Source of the DNA: Propionibacteriales bacterium
Lineage (GTDB): Bacteria; Actinomycetota; Actinomycetes; Propionibacteriales; Nocardioidaceae
Length of the DNA stretch: 64,000 nucleotides
Direction of reading: 5' to 3'
NCBI GenBank assembly: GCA_026392455.1
Contig: JAPLCB010000004.1
Coordinates: forward strand, 496,001 to 560,000
The notes under the pieces are model-generated. The model had not been told where the DNA came from, searched no databases, and saw only the letters and a list, made by a program, of their open reading frames with translations. Shown here in pieces: positions 29,274-37,522 of this stretch. The position numbers and the translations under genes are program-made. Position 1 is the first letter of the stretch. The number at the start of each line of letters is the position of its first letter.

Positions 29274-30098
29274 GTGCAGCCAGCCGACCCCGGGCTCGAG
29301 GCTCTCGAAGCTCTCGCCGTGGACATCGCCCGGGAGGCCGGCGACCTGGTCCGGTCGGCCCGGGTCGACGGCGTGCAGATCGCCGAGACCAAGAGCAGCG
29401 GCACTGACATCGTCACCGCGGCCGACCGTGCCAGCGAGGCCCTGATCACCCGCAGGATCCGGGCCGCCCGGCCCGACGACGGCATCCTCGGGGAGGAAGG
29501 TGCCGACGCCGAGGGGTCCTCGGGAGTCCGCTGGGTCGTCGACCCCATCGACGGGACCGTCAACTACGCCCACGGGTTGCCGGCGTACGCCGTCTCGATC
29601 GGCATCGAGGTCGGCGGCGAACCGGCCGTCGGGGTGGTGCTGAACCCGGCAACGGGCGTCGAGTACACCGCGGTTCGGGGAGGAGGCGCCCGCCGCAACG
29701 GCGAGCCGATCCGGGCAGCCGCACCGGTCCCGCTGGAGTCCGCGCTGGTGGGCACCGGGTTCTCCTACGAGCGCGACCTGCGGATCAGCCAGACCAGGAC
29801 GTTCGCCGAGCTGCTCCCGCGGATCGCGGACGTCCGGCGGTTCGGCTCGTGCGCCCTCGACCTCTGCGCGGTCGCCGAAGGCTCGCTGGACGGTTACGTG
29901 GAAGAAGGCATCGGCGGAGCCTGGGACTATGCCGCCGGGGTGGTGATCGCCACCGAGGCCGGCGCCCGGGTGGAGGTGCTGACCGGGACGTACGGCCGGA
30001 TCCTGGTCGTCGCGGCGCCGACCGCCGGCTACCCGGAGTTCCGGCGCCTGGTCGCGGAGTGCGGCTTTCTGTCAGCTGCCGGCAGCGCCGACCGATAG
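29274..30098 (+). CDS. suhB: Inositol monophosphatase family protein
   Basis: This 274-residue Mg2+-dependent phosphatase has the metal motifs GEEG (73-76), DPIDGTVNYAHG (90-101) and GAWDYAAG near 217. In actinobacteria such enzymes dephosphorylate inositol-1-phosphate for phosphatidylinositol and mycothiol synthesis, but histidinol phosphatase and other paralogues share the motifs. The GTG at 29274 is used, immediately downstream of the ferrochelatase stop. Confidence 0.9.
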   Translation: MQPADPGLEALEALAVDIAREAGDLVRSARVDGVQIAETKSSGTDIVTAADRASEALITRRIRAARPDDGILGEEGADAEGSSGVRWVVDPIDGTVNYAHGLPAYAVSIGIEVGGEPAVGVVLNPATGVEYTAVRGGGARRNGEPIRAAAPVPLESALVGTGFSYERDLRISQTRTFAELLPRIADVRRFGSCALDLCAVAEGSLDGYVEEGIGGAWDYAAGVVIATEAGARVEVLTGTYGRILVVAAPTAGYPEFRRLVAECGFLSAAGSADR

Positions 30099-30161
30099 GT
30101 CGGGAACAAGCGGGGCCCGAAACCGGTTGACGCCTTCCGCAGGGCGGCTCGCCGACCGAAC

Positions 30162-30187
30162 GTGCACTTTCGGTCCAGGTGGTGCAC
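30162..30187. promoter_or_regulatory. Paired GTGCAC sites in the DUF4193 promoter region
   Basis: Two palindromic GTGCAC sites (30162-30167 and 30182-30187) are 20 bp apart, about two helical turns, in the 204-bp gap upstream of the DUF4193 gene. They could be a dimeric operator. No regulator is indicated. Confidence 0.3.
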
Positions 30188-30302
30188 AATCTGCGCGCCG
30201 TCACATTGCGGCGGCGCGGGGACGATATTTCCTGGTACGGGACGCTGGAACCCCCAGGATCCAGCTGGGGTACCCCGAGAAGACGGGGGAAGGAGAGGGA
30301 CG

Positions 30303-30593
30303 ATGGCAACCGATTACGACGCACCACGCAAGACTGAAGAAGAGCAGAACGAGGACAGCCTCGAAGAGCTCAAGGCGCGGCGGCACGACAAGAACTCCGG
30401 CAAGGTCGACGAGGACGAGACCGAGGCTGCGGAGTCGTTCGAGCTTCCCGGCGCTGACCTCAGCCACGAGGAGCTCGCGGTCGAGGTGATGCCTCGCCAG
30501 GACGACGAGTTCACCTGCATGAGCTGCTTCCTGGTCCACCACCGCAGCCAGCTCGCAGATCCGAAGAAGAAGATCTGCCGGGACTGCGTCTGA
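30303..30593 (+). CDS. DUF4193 family zinc-ribbon protein
   Basis: This 96-residue, strongly acidic protein has an actinobacteria-wide DUF4193 domain. Its C-terminal zinc ribbon is CMSC near 77-80 and CRDC at the end (92-95). The N-terminus is charged and probably disordered (EEEQNEDSLEELKARRHD). Its function is unknown. An excellent AGGAGAGG site precedes the ATG, which suggests high expression, and a strong terminator follows directly. Confidence 0.9.
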   Translation: MATDYDAPRKTEEEQNEDSLEELKARRHDKNSGKVDEDETEAAESFELPGADLSHEELAVEVMPRQDDEFTCMSCFLVHHRSQLADPKKKICRDCV

Positions 30594-30609
30594 ACCACGC
30601 ACGAACCGA

Positions 30610-30642
30610 AACGGCCGCTGACCCCTGGGGTCAGCGGCCGTT
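30610..30642. terminator. Strong bidirectional hairpin terminator
   Basis: AACGGCCGCTGACCCC (30610-30625) pairs perfectly with 30627-30642, a 16-bp stem with a near-zero loop. It lies between the convergent DUF4193 and DUF4235 genes. Confidence 0.85.
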
Positions 30643-30659
30643 CGTCGTTGTTCTGGTGG

Positions 30660-30974
30660 TCAGGCGCGTGCCTGGACGCCCGGCGGTACCTTGCCGGTGG
30701 ACTTGGCGTAGTAACCGGCAGCACGTCGGGTGGCCAGCATCTTGACCACCGCGACCAGGGTCCCCGAGAGCGCGGCGAACAGCAGCGCCTCGCTCAGGTC
30801 GACCTCGGGGTCGGCCGGGTTGGCAGGGGGCTCCTTGCCGGCAGCGGCCTTCCAGGTGGCGTTCAGCCCCTTGCGGGCAACCGTCGCGGCCAGCAGCGCG
30901 GCCACGACCGAGAAGGCGCTCCAGACCTTCGAGTTGTCCTGCGCTTCGTGCTCGGTGATCGCTTTCTTGGACAT
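30660..30974 (-). CDS. DUF4235 family membrane protein
   Basis: This 104-residue protein has two hydrophobic segments (about 20-38 and 66-83) and the DUF4235 pattern WSAFSVVAALLAATVARKGL and KMLATRRAAGYYAKSTGKVP. It is common in actinobacteria, of unknown function. It converges on the DUF4193 gene across a shared terminator. Confidence 0.85.
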   Translation of the reverse strand: MSKKAITEHEAQDNSKVWSAFSVVAALLAATVARKGLNATWKAAAGKEPPANPADPEVDLSEALLFAALSGTLVAVVKMLATRRAAGYYAKSTGKVPPGVQARA

Positions 30975-31041
30975 GCCACCTCATCGGTTCGGAGATCGGG
31001 CTCGGGCTCAGAGTACCCAGCGCTCACGGCGCCCACACGGG

Positions 31042-31515
31042 TCAGGCTTCGGCGGCGGACGTCCGGGTCAGGGCAGCTGCCAGGGTGCGAGGGTGCCGGG
31101 TCGAGATCAGCCAGTACGGCGTCGGGTCGCTCGGGTCGTCGATCGGCACCCGCACGGCTCGGGAGATGTACGGCCGGGTGTGCAGGAAGGCACGCGCGTT
31201 CGCCTCGACACCGTGCACCCGGCGGGTGGCGTCCTTGTCCAGCGCCTCGGCCGCCCCCAGGTGCTCCAGGGCGATCTGGGCGGGTCCGGCGTACAGGACA
31301 CCGTCGCGCACCTCCACCCTGGACGAGCCCACCCACGCGAAGATCCCGAACACGGCCGCGAGCAGGGCGCCGCTGGCCGCCCACGCGAGCCAGGGGGGCA
31401 GAGCCACCGTGAACGCCAGCCAGACGGTGGCGAGGAACATGGTCGCTTGGACCCACCAACGGAGCGGTACGTGCAGTCGTTCGGCGTACTCAGTGGTTCC
31501 GGTCCCGGTCGACAT
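31042..31515 (-). CDS. DUF3093 family membrane protein
   Basis: This 157-residue protein has two adjacent hydrophobic helices (about 22-55) followed by a soluble domain (VEVRDGVLYAGPAQIALEHL, then AFLHTRPYISRAVRVPIDDP). It is usually found divergent from dut in actinobacteria, as here. Its function is unknown. The ATG at 31513-31515 has GGAAGGAG as ribosome binding site. A longer reading of the frame into the upstream repeats is not credible. Confidence 0.88.
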   Translation of the reverse strand: MSTGTGTTEYAERLHVPLRWWVQATMFLATVWLAFTVALPPWLAWAASGALLAAVFGIFAWVGSSRVEVRDGVLYAGPAQIALEHLGAAEALDKDATRRVHGVEANARAFLHTRPYISRAVRVPIDDPSDPTPYWLISTRHPRTLAAALTRTSAAEA

Positions 31516-31599
31516 CTCGCTCCTTCCCCTGGTCGGTGATCGGGTGGCAAGCCTGTCATCCCGCTCGGCGGTGGTCGCAGGTAGGGTCCCCCTGCGCGA

Positions 31600-31754
31600 T
31601 CCTCGCTCCGCTCGTCGACGAGTTCTCGGCCACTCGGTCACGAGCAAGCTCGGACACTCGGTAGCCTCGACTCGTGCTCCTCGCTCCGCTCGTCGACGAG
31701 TTCTCGGCCACTCGGTCACGAGCAAGCTCGGACACTCGGTAGCCTCGACTCGTG
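31600..31754. repeat. 78-bp tandem repeat carrying promoter, mini-ORF and start codon (dut array)
   Basis: Two identical 77-bp stretches (31600-31676 and 31678-31754) repeat with a 78-bp period. Each starts TCCTCGCTCCGCTCGTC and ends with TAGCCT, 6 nt and GTG. The GTG of copy 1 (31674) opens a 22-codon ORF ending at the TAG (31740-31742) that is also the first half of the copy-2 TAGCCT. The GTG of copy 2 is the start of dut. A more degenerate upstream module has TAGGGT at 31582-31587, but GCG replaces GTG. CGAGC-AA-GCTCG forms a hairpin in each unit. Related units occur inverted at 35263-35440. Confidence 0.9.
31674..31742 (+). CDS. Putative leader mini-ORF upstream of dut
   Basis: A 22-codon ORF (peptide MLLAPLVDEFSATRSRASSD then TR) starts at a GTG 6 nt after TAGCCT (31662-31667). 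Its TAG is part of the next TAGCCT box. Related peptides are encoded upstream of trkA, where the first six residues and the SPTRPRD-like section recur. Translation is unproven; it may be only a by-product of repeat structure. Confidence 0.3.
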   Translation: MLLAPLVDEFSATRSRASSDTR

Positions 31755-32192
31755 GTGGCTATTCAGATCCTCAGACTCGATCCCGAGCTCGCAGTACCGG
31801 CGTACGCCAATCCCGGCGACGCCGGGGCCGACCTGTTCGCTCGGGTCGACGTGCGGCTGGAGCCGGGGGAGCGGAAGCTCGTTCCGACCGGGATCGCCGT
31901 GGCCCTGCCCGACGGGTACGTCGCCCTGGTGCACCCGCGATCGGGGTTGGCCCACAAGGTCGGTCTGTCGATCGTCAATGCGCCGGGCACGATCGACGCG
32001 GGGTACCGTGGCGAGATCCAGGTGTGCCTGGTGAATCTCGACCCGACGACCCCGATCGCGCTGGAACGCGGCGACCGGATCGCCCAGCTGGTCATCCAGC
32101 GCTTCGAGACCGCCGAGTTCGTCGAGGTCGACACGTTGCCCGACTCCGCCCGGGGTACTGGCGGATATGGCTCAACCGGAGGATTTGCATGA
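31752..32192 (+). CDS. dut: dUTP diphosphatase (dUTPase)
   Basis: This 146-residue trimeric dUTPase converts dUTP to dUMP and PPi. The five motifs are present: [45 protein letters not shown] and [11 protein letters not shown]. The GTG at 31752 is 6 nt after TAGCCT (31740-31745) and belongs to the last copy of a tandem promoter repeat; a second GTG at 31755 is also possible. There is no ribosome binding site, so the message is probably leaderless. The stop overlaps the DUF3710 start (ATGA). Confidence 0.95.
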
Positions 32193-32833
32193 GATTGCGG
32201 CGCAAGAACGTCGAGAACGACCTCCCCGAGGTCACTGACGGGATGGACGAGACGCACGAGGACGCAGGGACCCCGGCCGCAGCCGCGGCGGGTCCCCTCG
32301 ACGTGGCGGACCTCGACCCGGCGGCCACCTACATCGACCTGGGCAGCCTGCTGTTCGTGCCCGGCCCCGACCTCGAGCTGCGGCTCCAGGTCGAGGAGGA
32401 CACCGGCGAGGTGGTCTCGGTGCTGCTGGTGGCCGACGAGGGCGTCCTGGAGACGCGGGCGTTCGCCTCGTCGCGGGGCGGTGACCTGTGGGCCGAGGCC
32501 CGGACCGAGATCGCGGCCGACACCGTGCAGCGCGGTGGTACCGCTGTGGAAGCCGAAGGTCCGTTCGGGACCGAGCTGCACTGCGAGGTCCCGGTCGTCG
32601 ACGCCCAGGGAACCGAGCTGGTCCAGCCCTCGCGGGTGATCGGCTACACGGGCCCGCGCTGGTTCCTGCGCGCCACCATCGCCGGCCGTCCGGCCAAGGA
32701 CCCCGCCTACGCCGTGCCGTTCGAGGAAGCGATCCGGACGATGGCGGTCCGGCGCGGTCACGAGGCGATGGCCCCCGGCGAAGCCCTGCCGCTGCGGCTT
32801 CCGCCCGAGGCGCGACCGCAGGCCGCCGAGTAG
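32189..32833 (+). CDS. DUF3710 family protein
   Basis: This 214-residue soluble protein has an acidic, Ala-rich N-terminus (about 1-45) and a DUF3710 core ([20 protein letters not shown], then [17 protein letters not shown]). It is typical of the dut neighbourhood in actinobacteria and of unknown function. The ATG overlaps the dut stop by ATGA, with GGAGG just upstream, so it is coupled to dut. Confidence 0.9.
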
Positions 32834-32840
32834 AGCGGTC

Positions 32841-32855
32841 TACGCTGGAGTCATG
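32841..32855 (+). promoter_or_regulatory. -10 box and leaderless ATG start
   Basis: TACGCT (32841-32846) ends 6 nt before the ATG at 32853 of the OB-fold gene. It may give that gene a second promoter inside the dut operon. Confidence 0.45.
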
Positions 32856-33227
32856 GCAAACACCAAGGGGCGGCTGCGCAGCGGGATCCGGCAGTGGGCG
32901 AGTCAGGCGCACGCGGAAGCAGTGGACCTGCAGCGGGACACTGCCAAGGCCGCCAAGGCCGGTTGCCTGCGGATCGAGGACGCTCCTGATCGGGAGATGG
33001 TCACGGTGCAAGGGACCCTGCGGACGGTGACGCTGCGGCCGCGCGGCGGCGTACCGGCCCTCGAGGCCGAGCTGTACGACGGCACCGGCACCATCACGGT
33101 GCTCTGGCTCGGTCGACGCCGGATCGCCGGCATCTTCCCGGGACGAGCGATCCGGGTGACCGGTCGGATCGGTGTGCACGGCGGCGAGCGGACCCTGTAC
33201 AACCCTCGCTACGACCTTCGGTACTGA
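32853..33227 (+). CDS. OB-fold nucleic acid-binding protein
   Basis: This 124-residue protein has a RecG-wedge-like OB fold at about 45-120 (MVTVQGTLRTVTLRP, LEAELYDGTGTITVLWLGRR, GRAIRVTGRIGV) and a helical N-terminus. It probably binds single-stranded nucleic acid. It sits in the dut-DUF3710-DUF3159 cluster, 19 bp after DUF3710. Confidence 0.85.
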   Translation: MANTKGRLRSGIRQWASQAHAEAVDLQRDTAKAAKAGCLRIEDAPDREMVTVQGTLRTVTLRPRGGVPALEAELYDGTGTITVLWLGRRRIAGIFPGRAIRVTGRIGVHGGERTLYNPRYDLRY

Positions 33228-33236
33228 GGGGATCGG

Positions 33237-33950
33237 GTGCAGAACCCAGAGTCGGCGGCAGCGGAGCTGACGGTCGAGGAGGTCGTCCGGGGCCAGCTCG
33301 CGAAGGCGCTTGGCGGTCGTCGCGGAATGCTGGAGGCGGCGGTCCCGACGATCGCCTTCACGGTGCTCTTCCTGACCACCCACCAGCTGCGGATCGCGGT
33401 CGCGATCTCGGTCGGGAGCGCGCTGGTCCTCCTCGCCGTCCGGCTGGTCCAGCGCAGCACGCCGCAGTTCGTGCTGAACAGTCTGTTCGGGATCGGGATC
33501 GGCGCCTTCTTCGCCTACCGGGCCGCCAAGGGCGGGGGTGACGCCAACGACCAGGCACTGGCGTACTTCCTGCCGGGGATCCTCTACAACGCCGTCTACT
33601 CGGTCGTGATCGCCGTCTCGGTCCTGGTCCGCTGGCCGCTGGTCGGCTTCCTGGTCGGCAGTGTCACCGGTGACCCGACCGCCTGGCGGTCGGACCCGGC
33701 GGTGGTGCGGCTCTGCAGCCGGCTGACCTGGATCCTGGTGCTGCCCTGCCTGGTGCGGGTCGTGGTGCAGGCTCCGATCTACCTGGCCGGCCGCAACCAC
33801 TGGTGGGACCAGGAGTCGGCGGTCGCCGCGCTGGGGTTCACCAAGCTCGCGATGGGCTGGCCGCTCCAGATCGCAGCGCTCGCCGGGATGGTCTGGCTGC
33901 TCAGCCGGAACCGGACCCCGGTCGTCGTTACTGGTGACCGCCAGGATTGA
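33237..33950 (+). CDS. DUF3159 family membrane protein
   Basis: This 237-residue protein has about six hydrophobic segments and belongs to the actinobacterial DUF3159 family, with markers GGRRGMLEAAVPTIAFTVLF and SVTGDPTAWRSDPAVVRLC. Its function is unknown. The GTG at 33237 follows the OB-fold gene by 9 bp. Its 3' end overlaps the opposite-strand trkA gene by 23 bp. Confidence 0.87.
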   Translation: MQNPESAAAELTVEEVVRGQLAKALGGRRGMLEAAVPTIAFTVLFLTTHQLRIAVAISVGSALVLLAVRLVQRSTPQFVLNSLFGIGIGAFFAYRAAKGGGDANDQALAYFLPGILYNAVYSVVIAVSVLVRWPLVGFLVGSVTGDPTAWRSDPAVVRLCSRLTWILVLPCLVRVVVQAPIYLAGRNHWWDQESAVAALGFTKLAMGWPLQIAALAGMVWLLSRNRTPVVVTGDRQD

Positions 33951-34596
33951 GCAGGCGCTCCAGGTCTTCCTCGACGTCGGCGTTGCAGACGAACAACAGC
34001 TCGTCGCCGATCTCGACCGGCTGCTCCGGTGCCGGCGTGTAGACCTGGCCGTCCCGGACGATGGTGACCAGGGTGCAGTTCTCCGGGAACGGGATCAGGC
34101 CGGACGGCTTGCCGACGTACGGCGAGTCGGCGGGCAGGGTCATCTCGACCAGGTTGGCGTTGCCCCGGCCCAGGGTGAAGAGCCGGACGACGTCGCCGAC
34201 GGTGACGGCCTCCTCGACCAGCGCCGACATGATCCGAGGGGTGGAGACGTTGACGTCGACCCCCCAGGCCTCGGTGAACAGCCATTCGTTGTTCGGGTGG
34301 TTGACCCGGCCGACGGTCCGGGGCACGCCGAACTCGGTCTTCGCCAGCAGTGAGGTGACCAGGTTGGCCTTGTCGTCACCGGTGGCAGCGATCACCACGT
34401 CGCAGTGCTCCAGACGGGCCTCCTCCAACGAGGACAGCTCGCACGAGTCGGCCAGCAGCCACTCGGCGTCGGGGACCCGCTCGGGCTTGATCGACGAGGG
34501 GTCCTTGTCGATCAGCAGCACGTGGTGCCCGTTGCCGATCAGCTCGCGGGCGATGGAGCGGCCGACAGCACCGGCTCCGGCGATTGCAACGCGCAT
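33928..34596 (-). CDS. TrkA-type potassium regulator (RCK domains), second of two
   Basis: This 222-residue protein has an N-terminal RCK_N Rossmann domain (GAGAVGRSIARELI, 7-20; LIDKDPSSI) that binds NAD(H) or nucleotides, and a C-terminal RCK_C domain at about 135-215. It resembles CeoC/TrkB of mycobacteria. Such proteins gate potassium transporters from the cytoplasmic side. It follows the other trkA gene by 6 bp, and its 3' end overlaps the DUF3159 gene tail-to-tail. No TrkH-type pore is in view, but a KimA-like importer is divergently encoded. Confidence 0.9.
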   Translation of the reverse strand: MRVAIAGAGAVGRSIARELIGNGHHVLLIDKDPSSIKPERVPDAEWLLADSCELSSLEEARLEHCDVVIAATGDDKANLVTSLLAKTEFGVPRTVGRVNHPNNEWLFTEAWGVDVNVSTPRIMSALVEEAVTVGDVVRLFTLGRGNANLVEMTLPADSPYVGKPSGLIPFPENCTLVTIVRDGQVYTPAPEQPVEIGDELLFVCNADVEEDLERLLNPGGHQ

Positions 34597-34602
34597 CTCA
34601 GC

Positions 34603-35265
34603 TCACTCTTCTTCCGGGCCGCGCTCGATGACCGTGTACGCGTGTCCGGCGTTCTCCTCGCGGAGCACCACGTGCAGGATGTCGCCCTCCTGGATGACCG
34701 ATTCCCGGGTCGGCAGCATGCCCTCTCCGAGGCGGTCGATCCAGGCGATCCGGCAGCGGGACTGCTCCTGGAACATGACCGTGCGCTCACCGATCCACGG
34801 CTCACCGGCCGGGACCTGGTCGAGCCGGATGGTGCCCGAGGGGTCGCGGAAGTCCGGCTCGGCGCCAGCCGGCAGCAACCGGCGCAGCACCTGGTCAGCA
34901 GTCCACTTGACCGTCGCGACCGTGGTGATGCCGAGGCGCTGGTAGACCTCGGCTCGGCCCGGGTCGTAGATCCGGGCGACGACCTGCTGGATACCGAAGG
35001 TCTCCCGAGCCACCCGCGCGGCGATGATGTTGGAGTTGTCACCGCTGCTCACGGCCGCGAACGCGTCAGCGCGTTCGATCCCGGCGTCCTCGAGGACCTT
35101 CTGGTCGAACCCGTAGCCGGTGACCTTGAGGCCGTTGAACGACGGACCGAGGCGCCGGAAGGCGTCCGGGTTGCTGTCGATCACGCTGACGGTGTGGTTC
35201 CGGTCCTCCAGCGAGCGCGCCAGGGTCGATCCGACCCGGCCGCATCCCATGATCACCACGTGCAC
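34603..35265 (-). CDS. TrkA-type potassium regulator (RCK domains), first of two
   Basis: This 220-residue protein resembles CeoB/TrkA. RCK_N has GCGRVGSTLARSL (7-19) and VIDSNPDAF; RCK_C is at about 135-215. The start is a GTG at 35265, 6 nt after TAGGCT (minus strand, 35272-35277), without a ribosome binding site. That promoter and start codon are the last unit of an 81-bp tandem repeat. It and the following RCK gene probably act together on one transporter. The divergent KimA-like protein, whose start lies 236 bp away, is the nearest candidate. Confidence 0.9.
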   Translation of the reverse strand: MHVVIMGCGRVGSTLARSLEDRNHTVSVIDSNPDAFRRLGPSFNGLKVTGYGFDQKVLEDAGIERADAFAAVSSGDNSNIIAARVARETFGIQQVVARIYDPGRAEVYQRLGITTVATVKWTADQVLRRLLPAGAEPDFRDPSGTIRLDQVPAGEPWIGERTVMFQEQSRCRIAWIDRLGEGMLPTRESVIQEGDILHVVLREENAGHAYTVIERGPEEE

Positions 35266-35274
35266 GTGCGGAGC

Positions 35275-35346
35275 CTATCGAGCGCCCGAGACGAAGTCTC
35301 GTGGCCGAGTGGGCGAAAGCACGATGACGAGCGGAGTGAGGATCAC
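35275..35346 (-). CDS. Putative leader mini-ORF upstream of trkA (proximal)
   Basis: A 23-residue ORF starts at GTG 35346 (MILTPLVIVL, then SPTRPRDFVSGAR) and ends in the TAG shared with TAGGCT 35277-35272. It is similar to the distal copy. Translation is unproven. Confidence 0.3.
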   Translation of the reverse strand: MILTPLVIVLSPTRPRDFVSGAR

Positions 35347-35355
35347 GTGCGGAGC

Positions 35356-35427
35356 CTATCGAGCGCCCGAGACGAAGTCTCGTGGCTGAGTGGGCGAGGT
35401 CGCGTTGACGAGCGGAGCGAGGATCAC
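35356..35427 (-). CDS. Putative leader mini-ORF upstream of trkA (distal)
   Basis: A 23-residue ORF starts at GTG 35427 (MILAPLVNAT, then SPTQPRDFVSGAR), 7 nt after TAGCGT, and ends in the TAG of TAGGCT 35358-35353. The C-terminal PRDFVSGAR is identical to the proximal copy. Confidence 0.3.
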   Translation of the reverse strand: MILAPLVNATSPTQPRDFVSGAR

Positions 35428-35500
35428 GGGTCGAACGCTACTGCACCCGCGAGGCGGTCGAGGCCAGGGAACAGCTCTTCGTGGTCTACCGTTTCCCGTC

Positions 35501-37522
35501 ATGGGCGTAGGCGGCGTATCCAAGCGGATCATCCTCGGTCGCAAGCTCCGGAGCTCTCAGCTCGGGGAGACCTTGCTGCCGAAGCGGATCGCGCTCCCGG
35601 TTTTCGCCAGCGACGCGCTCTCCTCGGTGGCGTACGCACCGGACGAGGTCTTCATCATGCTCTCGGTGGCCGGCGCCTCGGCGTACGCGTTCAGCTGGAA
35701 GATCGGCCTGGCGGTCGCCCTGGTGATGGCGACGGTGGTCACGTCGTACCGGCAGAACGTGCACGCCTACCCCAGCGGCGGTGGCGACTACGAGGTGGCG
35801 AGCGTCAACCTCGGCCGCCGGGCCGGGGTGACGGTGGCCAGCGCCCTGCTCGTCGACTACGTGCTGACCGTGGCCGTCTCCATCTCGTCCGGCGTCCAGA
35901 ACGCAGCCGCTGCGCTGCCCTTCGTCGACGGTCACGAGACCGAGTGGGCCTGCGTCCTGGTCGCGATCCTGGCTGCCCTGAACCTGCGCGGTATCCGCGA
36001 GTCCGGTGCTGCGTTCGCCATCCCGACGTACGGATTCATGCTCGGGGTGATCGGGATGGCGATCTACGCCGTCATCCGAGCCGCCGAGGGCAACCTGCCG
36101 GACGTCGAGAGTGCGAACCTCCAGCTCACTCCGGCGCCGGGCTACGAGGGTGACATCAGCCAGATCGCGATGATCTTCCTGCTGGCGCGCGCGTTCTCGT
36201 CCGGGTGTGCTGCGCTGACCGGGGTGGAGGCCATCTCCAACGGGGTGCCGGCCTTCCAGAAGCCGAAGAGCAAGAACGCCGCGACCACGTTGCTGCTGCT
36301 CGGGGCGATCGCGATCACGATGCTGATCAGCATCATCATCCTGGCGCGGAACATGGGCCTTCGCTACGTCGACCCGCACGACCTGGAACGGCTGCGCCAG
36401 GGTGACGGGTCGCCCCTGCCGGACGACTTCGACCAGCACACCGTGATCGCCCAGATCGCCCGGGCCGTGTTCAGCGACTTCTCGCCGGGCTTCTACTTCG
36501 TCATCTCGATGACCGGGATCATCCTGATCCTGGCCGCGAACACCGCGTTCAACGGGTTCCCGGTGCTCGGCTCGATCCTGGCCCGGGACGGGTTCGCCCC
36601 GCGTGCACTGGGGTCCCGCGGCGACCGGCTCGCCTACAGCAACGGCATCCTCTTCCTCGCGGCGATCGCGATCGTCCTGATCGTCGCGTTCCAGGCGGAG
36701 CCGACCCGGCTGATCCAGCTCTACATCGTCGGGGTGTTCGTCTCCTTCAACCTCAGCCAGCTCGGGATGATCCTGCACTGGACCCGGCACCTGAAGACCG
36801 AGACGAACCCGGCCGAACGTCGGCGGATGTTCCGGTCGCGGATCATCAACACCTTCGGGCTCGCGATGACCGCGGTGGTCTTCGTGATCGTGCTGCTCAC
36901 CAAGTTCCTGGCCGGTGCCTGGATCGCGATCCTGGCGATGATCGTCTTCTACGTCATCATGATGCGGATCCGTCAGCACTACGACCGGGTCGAGGCAGAG
37001 CTGGTGATCGGTGACTCTGACCCGATCATGCCGACCAGGGTGCACGCGATCGTGCTGGTCTCCAAGCTGCACAAGCCGACGATGCGGGCGCTGGCGTTCG
37101 CGAAGGCGACCCGGCCGAACCTGCTCGAGGCGATCTACGTCGGGTTCGACCAGGAGGACACCGACCGGCTGCTCGAGGACTGGGACCAACGCCGGATCGA
37201 CGTTCCGCTGAAGGTGCTCTACTCGCCGTACCGGGAGATCATCCGACCGATCGTCCAGTACGCCGTGGAGATCCGGGAGGCCAACCCGCGCGGGGTGGTC
37301 GCGGTGTACATCCCCGAGTACGTCGTCGGCAAGTGGTGGGAGCAGCTCCTGCACAACCAGACCGCGCTGCGGCTCAAGGGCAGGCTCCTGTTCACCCCGG
37401 GCGTCATGGTCACCTCGGTGCCCTACCAGCTGCGCGGGTCCGAGATCGGCAAGGAACGCACGGACTGGGAGCTGCTCCGATCGCGCCCCGGTGACATCCG
37501 ACGAGGAGGACGCGACCGATGA
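35501..37522 (+). CDS. KimA-like potassium importer (APC superfamily)
   Basis: This 673-residue protein has about 12 TM segments at 25-500 and a C-terminal cytoplasmic USP-like domain at about 520-650. Sequence blocks closely follow Bacillus KimA (YdaO): ASDALSSVAYAPDE, AYPSGGGDYEVAS, SSGCAALTGVEAISNGVPAF and RGDRLAYSNGI. KimA is a proton-coupled high-affinity K+ importer inhibited by c-di-AMP. The divergent pair of RCK proteins supports a potassium role; many genomes list such proteins only as amino acid permeases. TACCGT (35487-35492) lies 8 nt upstream of the ATG. The stop overlaps the methyltransferase start (ATGA). Confidence 0.85.
   Translation: MGVGGVSKRIILGRKLRSSQLGETLLPKRIALPVFASDALSSVAYAPDEVFIMLSVAGASAYAFSWKIGLAVALVMATVVTSYRQNVHAYPSGGGDYEVASVNLGRRAGVTVASALLVDYVLTVAVSISSGVQNAAAALPFVDGHETEWACVLVAILAALNLRGIRESGAAFAIPTYGFMLGVIGMAIYAVIRAAEGNLPDVESANLQLTPAPGYEGDISQIAMIFLLARAFSSGCAALTGVEAISNGVPAFQKPKSKNAATTLLLLGAIAITMLISIIILARNMGLRYVDPHDLERLRQGDGSPLPDDFDQHTVIAQIARAVFSDFSPGFYFVISMTGIILILAANTAFNGFPVLGSILARDGFAPRALGSRGDRLAYSNGILFLAAIAIVLIVAFQAEPTRLIQLYIVGVFVSFNLSQLGMILHWTRHLKTETNPAERRRMFRSRIINTFGLAMTAVVFVIVLLTKFLAGAWIAILAMIVFYVIMMRIRQHYDRVEAELVIGDSDPIMPTRVHAIVLVSKLHKPTMRALAFAKATRPNLLEAIYVGFDQEDTDRLLEDWDQRRIDVPLKVLYSPYREIIRPIVQYAVEIREANPRGVVAVYIPEYVVGKWWEQLLHNQTALRLKGRLLFTPGVMVTSVPYQLRGSEIGKERTDWELLRSRPGDIRRGGRDR

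Follow-up and report, generated by a model that had tools for sequence, protein, structure and literature searches.

By likeness of description, the repeat reported here appears closest to the MIRUs, the REP sequences and the hairpin elements of the IS200/IS605 type. MITEs and the 'mobile promoters' of prokaryotes are non-autonomous and carry promoter-like sequence into new genes. MIRU units contain a small ORF and overlap start and stop codons, and we know of no settled mechanism for their movement. In the M. tuberculosis complex they are described as short intergenic tandem units, of 77 and 53 bp, that can drive the downstream regX3 (PMC4213456). REP sequences and REPINs are presented as small, taxon-specific hairpin repeats with many copies, GTAG/GTGG feet and RAYT partners (PMC2817692, PMC6006769), while the account given for IS608 is one of insertion 3' of a motif that the left flank retains, each hairpin having on its 5' side a guide that matches the cleavage site (PMC5934647).

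Here we describe a repeat of about 80 bases that opens genes in a Propionibacteriales genome (Nocardioidaceae; assembly GCA_026392455.1). Among the matches listed for the open-licence literature, no paper describes such a repeat in its title or at the start of its abstract. That the repeat exists, forms a family, occupies the position reported below and has empty sites in congeners we hold to be very likely; that it is a small non-autonomous mobile repeat of one Nocardioidaceae genus we propose with moderate confidence, jointly with the explanation developed in the Discussion.

Results

Two arrays of the repeat lead into trkA and dut

The window, a stretch of 64,000 nucleotides (contig JAPLCB010000004.1, positions 496,001 to 560,000), holds two arrays of the repeat. 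Read directly on the minus strand, 35263-35440 consists of TAGCGT-N7-GTG followed by two 81-bp units, each with a TAGGCT-N6-GTG end. Three -10/start modules thus stand in a row, the last GTG being the start of trkA, as the initial annotation had proposed. Tandem Repeats Finder reports 2.0 copies x 81 bp with 91% matches at 35263-35428. The first unit (35344..35424, minus strand) begins immediately behind the outer GTG and closes with a GTG of its own, and the second (35263..35343, minus strand) ends on the trkA start codon; both match the covariance model described below (G000:C3:531344-531433, E 4e-17, and G000:C3:531263-531352, E 5e-17, respectively). The gene itself (34603..35265, minus strand; 220 aa) is an ORF that is presumably trkA, a name given to it from reading the protein; it opens at the last GTG (35265-35263), and the position of this start is corroborated by 14 orthologue rows in which the coding match begins at the same codon.

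On the plus strand, two 78-bp units (31599..31676 and 31677..31754), both recognised by sequence, Tandem Repeats Finder (2.0 copies x 78 bp, 100% matches, 31600-31754) and model match, precede the dut ORF, the second ending on the dut start GTG (31752-31754). They are preceded by an outer TAGGGT module (31582..31598, plus strand) in which the start-codon position reads GCG; the expectation of an RTG in every module therefore holds for the trkA array and fails at the outermost position of dut. The two arrays are related yet clearly diverged, as had been noted from the letters alone (76% identity over query bases 1-131 of 166 by BLAST, E 7e-21). The trkA array had also been called inverted, and it does lie on the strand opposite to dut; this is no more than the strand of trkA, and both arrays point into their own genes. 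Upstream of trkA, the start of the divergent permease-like gene (TACCGT...ATG; 35484..35503, plus strand) is an empty site, the same start being filled in G004, G015, G016 and G019 (G and L numbers are our handles for genomes and loci). In G015 both divergent genes of this intergenic region carry the element (L122/L208); in the window trkA alone does.

The repeat forms a dispersed family restricted to one genus

The 17-mer TCCTCGCTCCGCTCGTC, searched with at most one mismatch, occurs at 17 sites in this genome, compared to none for the reversed control, which rules out a chance repeat. BLAST with the array returned 24 matches in the genome, the weakest of them probably due to chance. A covariance model was built from an alignment of 15 copies and used with a threshold of E<=0.01; it finds 37 matches in this genome. 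When 58 genomes were searched, this one among them, 12 had matches, and these 12 belong to a single genus. The matches sum to 173 over 12 of the 24 congeners, this genome counted, and the other 12 congeners gave no match at the same threshold, G002, G003, G009, G010, G011 and G013 being copy-free. In the family-wide search at E<=1e-4, whose strict filters can lose weak matches, 185 of 197 genomes had none; the 12 that matched are the same 12, from one of 26 genera. With an exact 24-base pattern searched in one genome per species (84,980 species), all 36 of the 36 stretches found came from Nocardioides, Marmoricola or Nocardioidaceae records. A 24-base pattern had no exact match in viral contigs, and carriage by phage was rejected on that ground. 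An Rfam search of 30000-37000 gave just two weak miRNA matches, which lie outside the repeats (at about 30592-30659) and do not reach the gathering score; as the repeats themselves had no Rfam match, a known Rfam RNA was likewise rejected.

From start codon to start codon the unit commonly measures 78-84 bp, with variants up to about 140 bp. There is also a second module, with head RTGATCGTCGCTNCGCTCCTCAACGCTCCTCGCTACGCC, hairpin GGAGCAAGCTCC and tail GCGTAACCTCGACCCGTG, that is found as a solitary copy, as tandem copies, or joined to the rear of a truncated first module (L071:1501-1586, L068:1501-1588, L020:1397-1593, L058, L060, L239, L240, L242 and L257). Remnant-like sequences that consist of the tail only lie directly before the start codon of mutM in G019 and G020 (L150, L154) and of dtd in G019 (L156). 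A second thyA-like gene of G004, cut by a contig end (L227, G004:C46), carries a copy of the ATCGTC/CTCCTC subfamily.

Most copies end on the start codons of coding genes

We read the placement of 127 copies, including 22 of the 37 in this genome. An ATG or GTG lies within 3 bases of the model end in 117 of them, and 108 open an ORF of at least 60 aa at the element end; all 108 of these ORFs are coding as judged by codon-position GC, and none is so in either shifted frame. Asked whether the boundary of the element is always the start codon, the survey thus returns 108 of 127 copies that end on the start codon of a coding ORF. Among the remaining 19, by our reading, eight are followed by a further tandem copy and seven are composites fused to a second module; L227 is cut by the contig end inside thyA, the model overshoots the end of L264, which probably falls on the start of a pyruvate-kinase-like ORF, and two copies lie at 3' ends, L265 at a tRNA-Gln gene and L267 at an opposite-strand ORF. 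Copies do not, then, usually lie in 3' regions, the placement that would have spoken against a promoter-like element. L267 (601-686, in G007) is a weak copy of 42.6 bits without an inner RTG that points into the 3' end of the opposite-strand ORF; at protein genes it is the only copy read that clearly departs from placement at a start codon. By ARAGORN, a copy abuts the 3' end of tRNA-Gln both in this genome (L067:1501-1590) and in G019 (L265:601-694), and CCCCGGGTR from the tRNA-Gln end recurs beyond the opposite edge of the element.

On the upstream side, ATG or GTG stands directly before the element in 88 of 95 standard-length copies, and TANNNT is found 4-9 nt before this outer RTG in 76 of the 95, compared to 2.3 (maximum 8) after shuffling; it is absent in the other 19. 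In a Pfam search of ten downstream proteins, nine matched, for example thymidylate synthase, D-Tyr-tRNA deacylase and DsrE-like families, a PdtaS-like kinase and fructosamine kinase, a mixture in which no common function is visible.

Congeners carry empty sites

The upstream regions of seven genes were compared across congeners, and 97 orthologue rows were scored as filled or empty by eye. The element fills 17 of them: trkA 2/15, thyA 4/17, nadA 2/13, mutM 1/16, dtd 1/11, yaaA 2/8 (one of the two carrying the second module) and nucA 5/17. A scripted search for the head (<=4 mismatches) recovers 15 of the 17, missing nucA in G000 and G019, and also returns two element-free rows (nucA in G009 and G010), which were read as lying inside the upstream gene; six more matches at 5 mismatches are taken as chance or remnants.

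At trkA, where the element is present as one unit in G015 and as two in the window, TAGCGT-N6/7-GTG runs straight into the gene in eight unfilled congeners (G004, G007, G008, G014, G016, G018, G019 and G021), while five more unfilled congeners lack TAGCGT. At nadA, GGACCCATG continues directly into ACCACG in G016 and G021, without an element, whereas in G000 and G004 GGACCCATG is followed by the element and then by the gene; G004 and G016 have 141 of 150 coding bases in common here. Clean empty sites of this kind, a host -10-like box and start codon followed by the gene, occur in sister species at trkA, nadA, thyA and nucA. Since the site is uninterrupted in sister species, the outer module would be the promoter and start codon of the ancestral gene, from which the element now separates the coding sequence. 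In the window, the outer TAGCGT (35435..35440, minus strand), which recurs 6-7 nt before the trkA GTG in the eight congeners named above, would accordingly be the ancestral trkA promoter box, and the outer GTG (35425..35427, minus strand) the ancestral trkA start position, now outside the element.

The comparison of trkA upstream regions in sister species had been suggested as a check on the initial annotation, which saw in the two arrays a mobile or copy-spreading promoter element fused at the start codon. It yielded no repeats in the sisters and an ordinary promoter that corresponds to the outer module, as insertion predicts; together with the genus-restricted family and the 108 of 127 copies on start codons, the empty sites support that proposal, with the element being promoter-like. 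The alternative offered at the same time, a regulatory device for housekeeping genes, is not borne out, given the patchy presence of the element and the mixed functions of the genes behind it. Gain would be the simple reading of filled versus empty sites, and precise loss of the element may have occurred at single sites.

Two hairpins covary in the manner of DNA

In the 15 copies of the model alignment, 96% of the cells of the predicted structure are paired, compared to 84% after shuffling and at most 52% when the pairs are slid. Over 95 copies, Watson-Crick cells number 1728 of 1891, compared to 1419 (maximum 1448) shuffled and at most 38% slid. When a single copy represents each downstream-gene group, they number 1113 of 1213, compared to 920 (maximum 945); alignment and tested pairs come from the same data, and these Watson-Crick counts are not probabilities. 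The mutual-information list for the 95 copies is likewise led by pairs of the two hairpins, with some indirect pairs among them. RNA structure usually has more G-T. At the 21 pairs, G-T cells number 39 and A-C cells 50 (105 and 116 after shuffling), and as G-T shows no excess over A-C, the hairpins behave like DNA; we infer that they act as such. Single copies mostly fold no better than shuffles, either as RNA (z -1.28 to 0.50, 4 copies) or as DNA (z -1.93 to 0.07, 6 copies), which counts against a very stable structure. Plain RNA structure was rejected for both reasons, the missing G-U excess and the weak single-copy folding.

A guide matches the bases at the inner start codon

Columns 33-37 of the alignment, here termed the guide, covary with the bases before the inner start codon and with the first base of that codon (columns 87-92; 95 copies). 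In unit 2 of the trkA array the guide lies at 35319..35323 (minus strand) and is complementary to 35265-35269, a stretch made up of the start codon's first base and the bases that precede it. The inner -10-like TAGGCT of this unit (35272..35277, minus strand), assigned as a match to the consensus, would have its GGC paired with 35312-35314 in the hairpin, in line with the covariation of the -10 helix (columns 42-44 with 81-83). Between the guide and the first base of the inner start codon the combinations are CG in 73, TA in 11 and CA in 8 of 94 copies.

Guide matches were scored in 80 non-tandem copies. On the inner side 73 guides match the base at -2 (26 expected), 73 that at -3 (43 expected) and 76 that at -1 (70.5 expected), and 74 match the first base of the start codon (57 expected). 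On the outer side the match is clearly above chance at -2 only (44, 21 expected), being weak at -3 (42, 36.5 expected) and without excess at -1 (61, 62.5 expected); the first base of the outer codon is matched in 54 (48 expected). Outer and inner bases are themselves identical at -2 in 47 of the 80 copies (22 expected) and at -5 in 47 (28.5 expected), a likeness that extends into the -10 box (position -9, 49/81 versus 32 expected). Outer and inner base differ at -2 in 33 copies; 30 of these have a guide that fits the inner base, and 1 has a guide that fits the outer one.

The match between guide and outer base would fit a choice of target by guide pairing, followed by drift on the outer side; a duplication, or homogenisation at a later time, would explain it equally well. 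Duplication is favoured by the tRNA-Gln sites: the right-hand repeat is part of the tRNA gene there, and the right-hand flank, being host sequence, looks less like a fixed end of the element than like a duplicated target. In the nadA copy of G004, which the close relative G016 lacks, the guide does not fit the target CCC. Guides also differ among species at one gene (nucA, the VSAGLF... group), which may reflect either a single insertion coevolving in place or repeated insertions.

Candidate movers in the congeners

The Y1 transposase family (PF01797) was found in none of the 24 congeners, the copy-rich ones included, its control being positive in 5 of 14. Reverse transcriptase (PF00078) is present in 3 of 24 (G008, G009 and G014), none of them copy-rich. 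Both negative results, for Y1 transposase throughout the congeners and for reverse transcriptase in the copy-rich genomes, count against the explanation that we favour. The IS110 transposase (PF01548) occurs in 8 of 24, including the copy-rich G004 and G016, and is absent from the copy-rich G000, G015 and G019. The search for PF04986 (Y2) was uninformative, as its control matched nowhere.

Discussion

The explanation that we favour, with moderate confidence in it as a whole, is that of a mobile repeat that swaps promoter and start codon with its host gene and spreads as a guided, folded single strand. Nearly all standard copies lie directly behind a start codon, mostly one with its own -10-like box, and end in a new -10-like box and an RTG that opens the gene; the host gene would thereby exchange its leaderless promoter and start for those of the element. 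This replacement is the likely reason why insertion into a very sensitive spot would be tolerated; promoter activity and leaderlessness of the element modules are predictions from their layout. As to how it spreads, the element would do so as a single strand in folded form, its guide pairing with NNN-RTG at the target. This target may be the non-template strand of a leaderless promoter, which is single-stranded while the promoter is open, and an enzyme would insert the element 3' of the RTG. Guided single-strand insertion, taken by itself, is a tentative proposal to which we would give somewhat less than an even chance. We think it unlikely that the repeat goes further and is a retargetable mini-element, landing where leaderless genes begin to be transcribed and translated, in which a guide of 4-5 nt on the folded single strand would pair with NNN-RTG in the open promoter and a new transposase family would insert the element 3' of the start codon, guide and carried start codon coevolving to reach new start-codon contexts.

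The repeat might instead spread without an enzyme. Template switching during replication or repair, between leaderless promoters that have TAGNCT-N6-RTG microhomology, would copy the unit into a new promoter, and the covariation would come from quasipalindrome-type template switching within the hairpin and from slippage between outer and inner promoters rather than from selection. Such a process would account for the lack of a candidate transposase in the searches for Y1 and reverse transcriptase, for Watson-Crick covariation without G-T excess and for the likeness of outer and inner promoters, which exceeds chance at several positions from -13 to -2 and at some loci amounts to identity with a species-specific sequence (nucA in G019 and G021). 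Leaderless promoters are presumably common in the family, and yet 185 of its 197 genomes have no match. The homology is moreover short and imperfect, it would be unusual for a unit to be copied ectopically to dozens of genes that are unrelated, and in a single clade only, and copies mostly stop exactly at the RTG and not elsewhere in the common promoter. Hairpins are reported to be created and maintained by template switching, as set out in PMC8794818; all in all we judge spread of this kind improbable.

More doubtful still is a regulatory leader, in which transcripts from the outer promoter would form a hairpin that ties up the inner start codon, a 22-codon upstream ORF would end in the TAG of the inner -10 box, and outer transcription or translation would control the gene. 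The covariation of the guide with the first base of the inner start codon is what such a leader would call for, and of 102 copies, 78 have a frame from the outer codon that stops at the -10 TAG/TAA, while in another 13 this frame overlaps with the start of the gene. However, this common frame may stem from common descent, the spacing being 78 nt in 72 of the 102 copies; G-U shows no excess over A-C, contrary to what is expected of RNA, and presence is patchy among close species. The upstream peptide, too, varies at first codon positions among copies, and for this reason a conserved leader peptide was rejected. Finally, it is exceedingly improbable that there is no mobile family and that each gene has ordinary conserved promoter DNA or a tandem duplication of local origin: for all the likeness of the tandem copies (100% at dut, 91% at trkA), the same sequence precedes many unrelated genes and has clean empty sites in congeners.

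If a mobile repeat that swaps promoter and start codon is the right explanation, insertion at a start codon by an element that brings its own would be an uncommonly neat means of persisting where genes are densely packed. Core genes (dut, trkA, thyA and nadA) would have their promoters rewired by the repeat, one species at a time. Guide and target vary naturally from copy to copy, which opens the targeting rule to direct tests, and the way in which MIRUs and other small hairpin repeats move could become testable too.

How does this element compare with the systems from which we set out? It shares with MIRUs its size, its tandem arrangement and its position at gene junctions, and resembles them in its placement at start codons; the promoter activity described for MIRUs is a prediction for the repeat. 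The likeness is one of description. The host is different, the boundary of the repeat is a start codon behind a -10-like box, and the covarying guide/start-codon foot and the empty sites are features of the repeat as characterised here. With REP sequences and REPINs it has in common that it is a small, multi-copy, taxon-specific hairpin repeat; it differs in having no RAYT-type (PF01797) transposase in any of the 24 congeners, and in lying at start codons in one orientation, whereas REP sequences are extragenic at large. By eye, GTAG is present in many copies, but in the tail, where it belongs to the -10 box, and not 5' of the second hairpin.

The layout is also like that of the IS200/IS605 elements, the repeat having hairpins, apparent insertion 3' of a short left-flank motif, and a guide 5' of the hairpin foot that would match a predicted cleavage site; the order of guide, hairpin and NNNRTG is accompanied by covariation. 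Insertion of the IS200/IS605 kind agrees with the left RTG in 88 of 95 copies and with the clean site at nadA, while the likeness of outer and inner sequence and the tRNA-Gln site resemble duplication. The repeat departs from these elements in the absence of a Y1 transposase from the 24 congeners, in the single guide that serves the right end and perhaps the target too, in its target, NNN-RTG at gene starts, and in a right end that holds a -10-like box and a start codon. We therefore describe the element as resembling IS200/IS605 or REP-type hairpin elements in layout and do not file it with either. No terminal inverted repeats were seen by eye at the ends of the aligned copies, as in IS200/IS605 elements, and the mover searches above pointed to no parent IS. 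Akin to MITEs and 'mobile promoters', the repeat appears to be non-autonomous and has promoter-like sequence; what would set it apart from them is that its insertion replaces the start codon itself.
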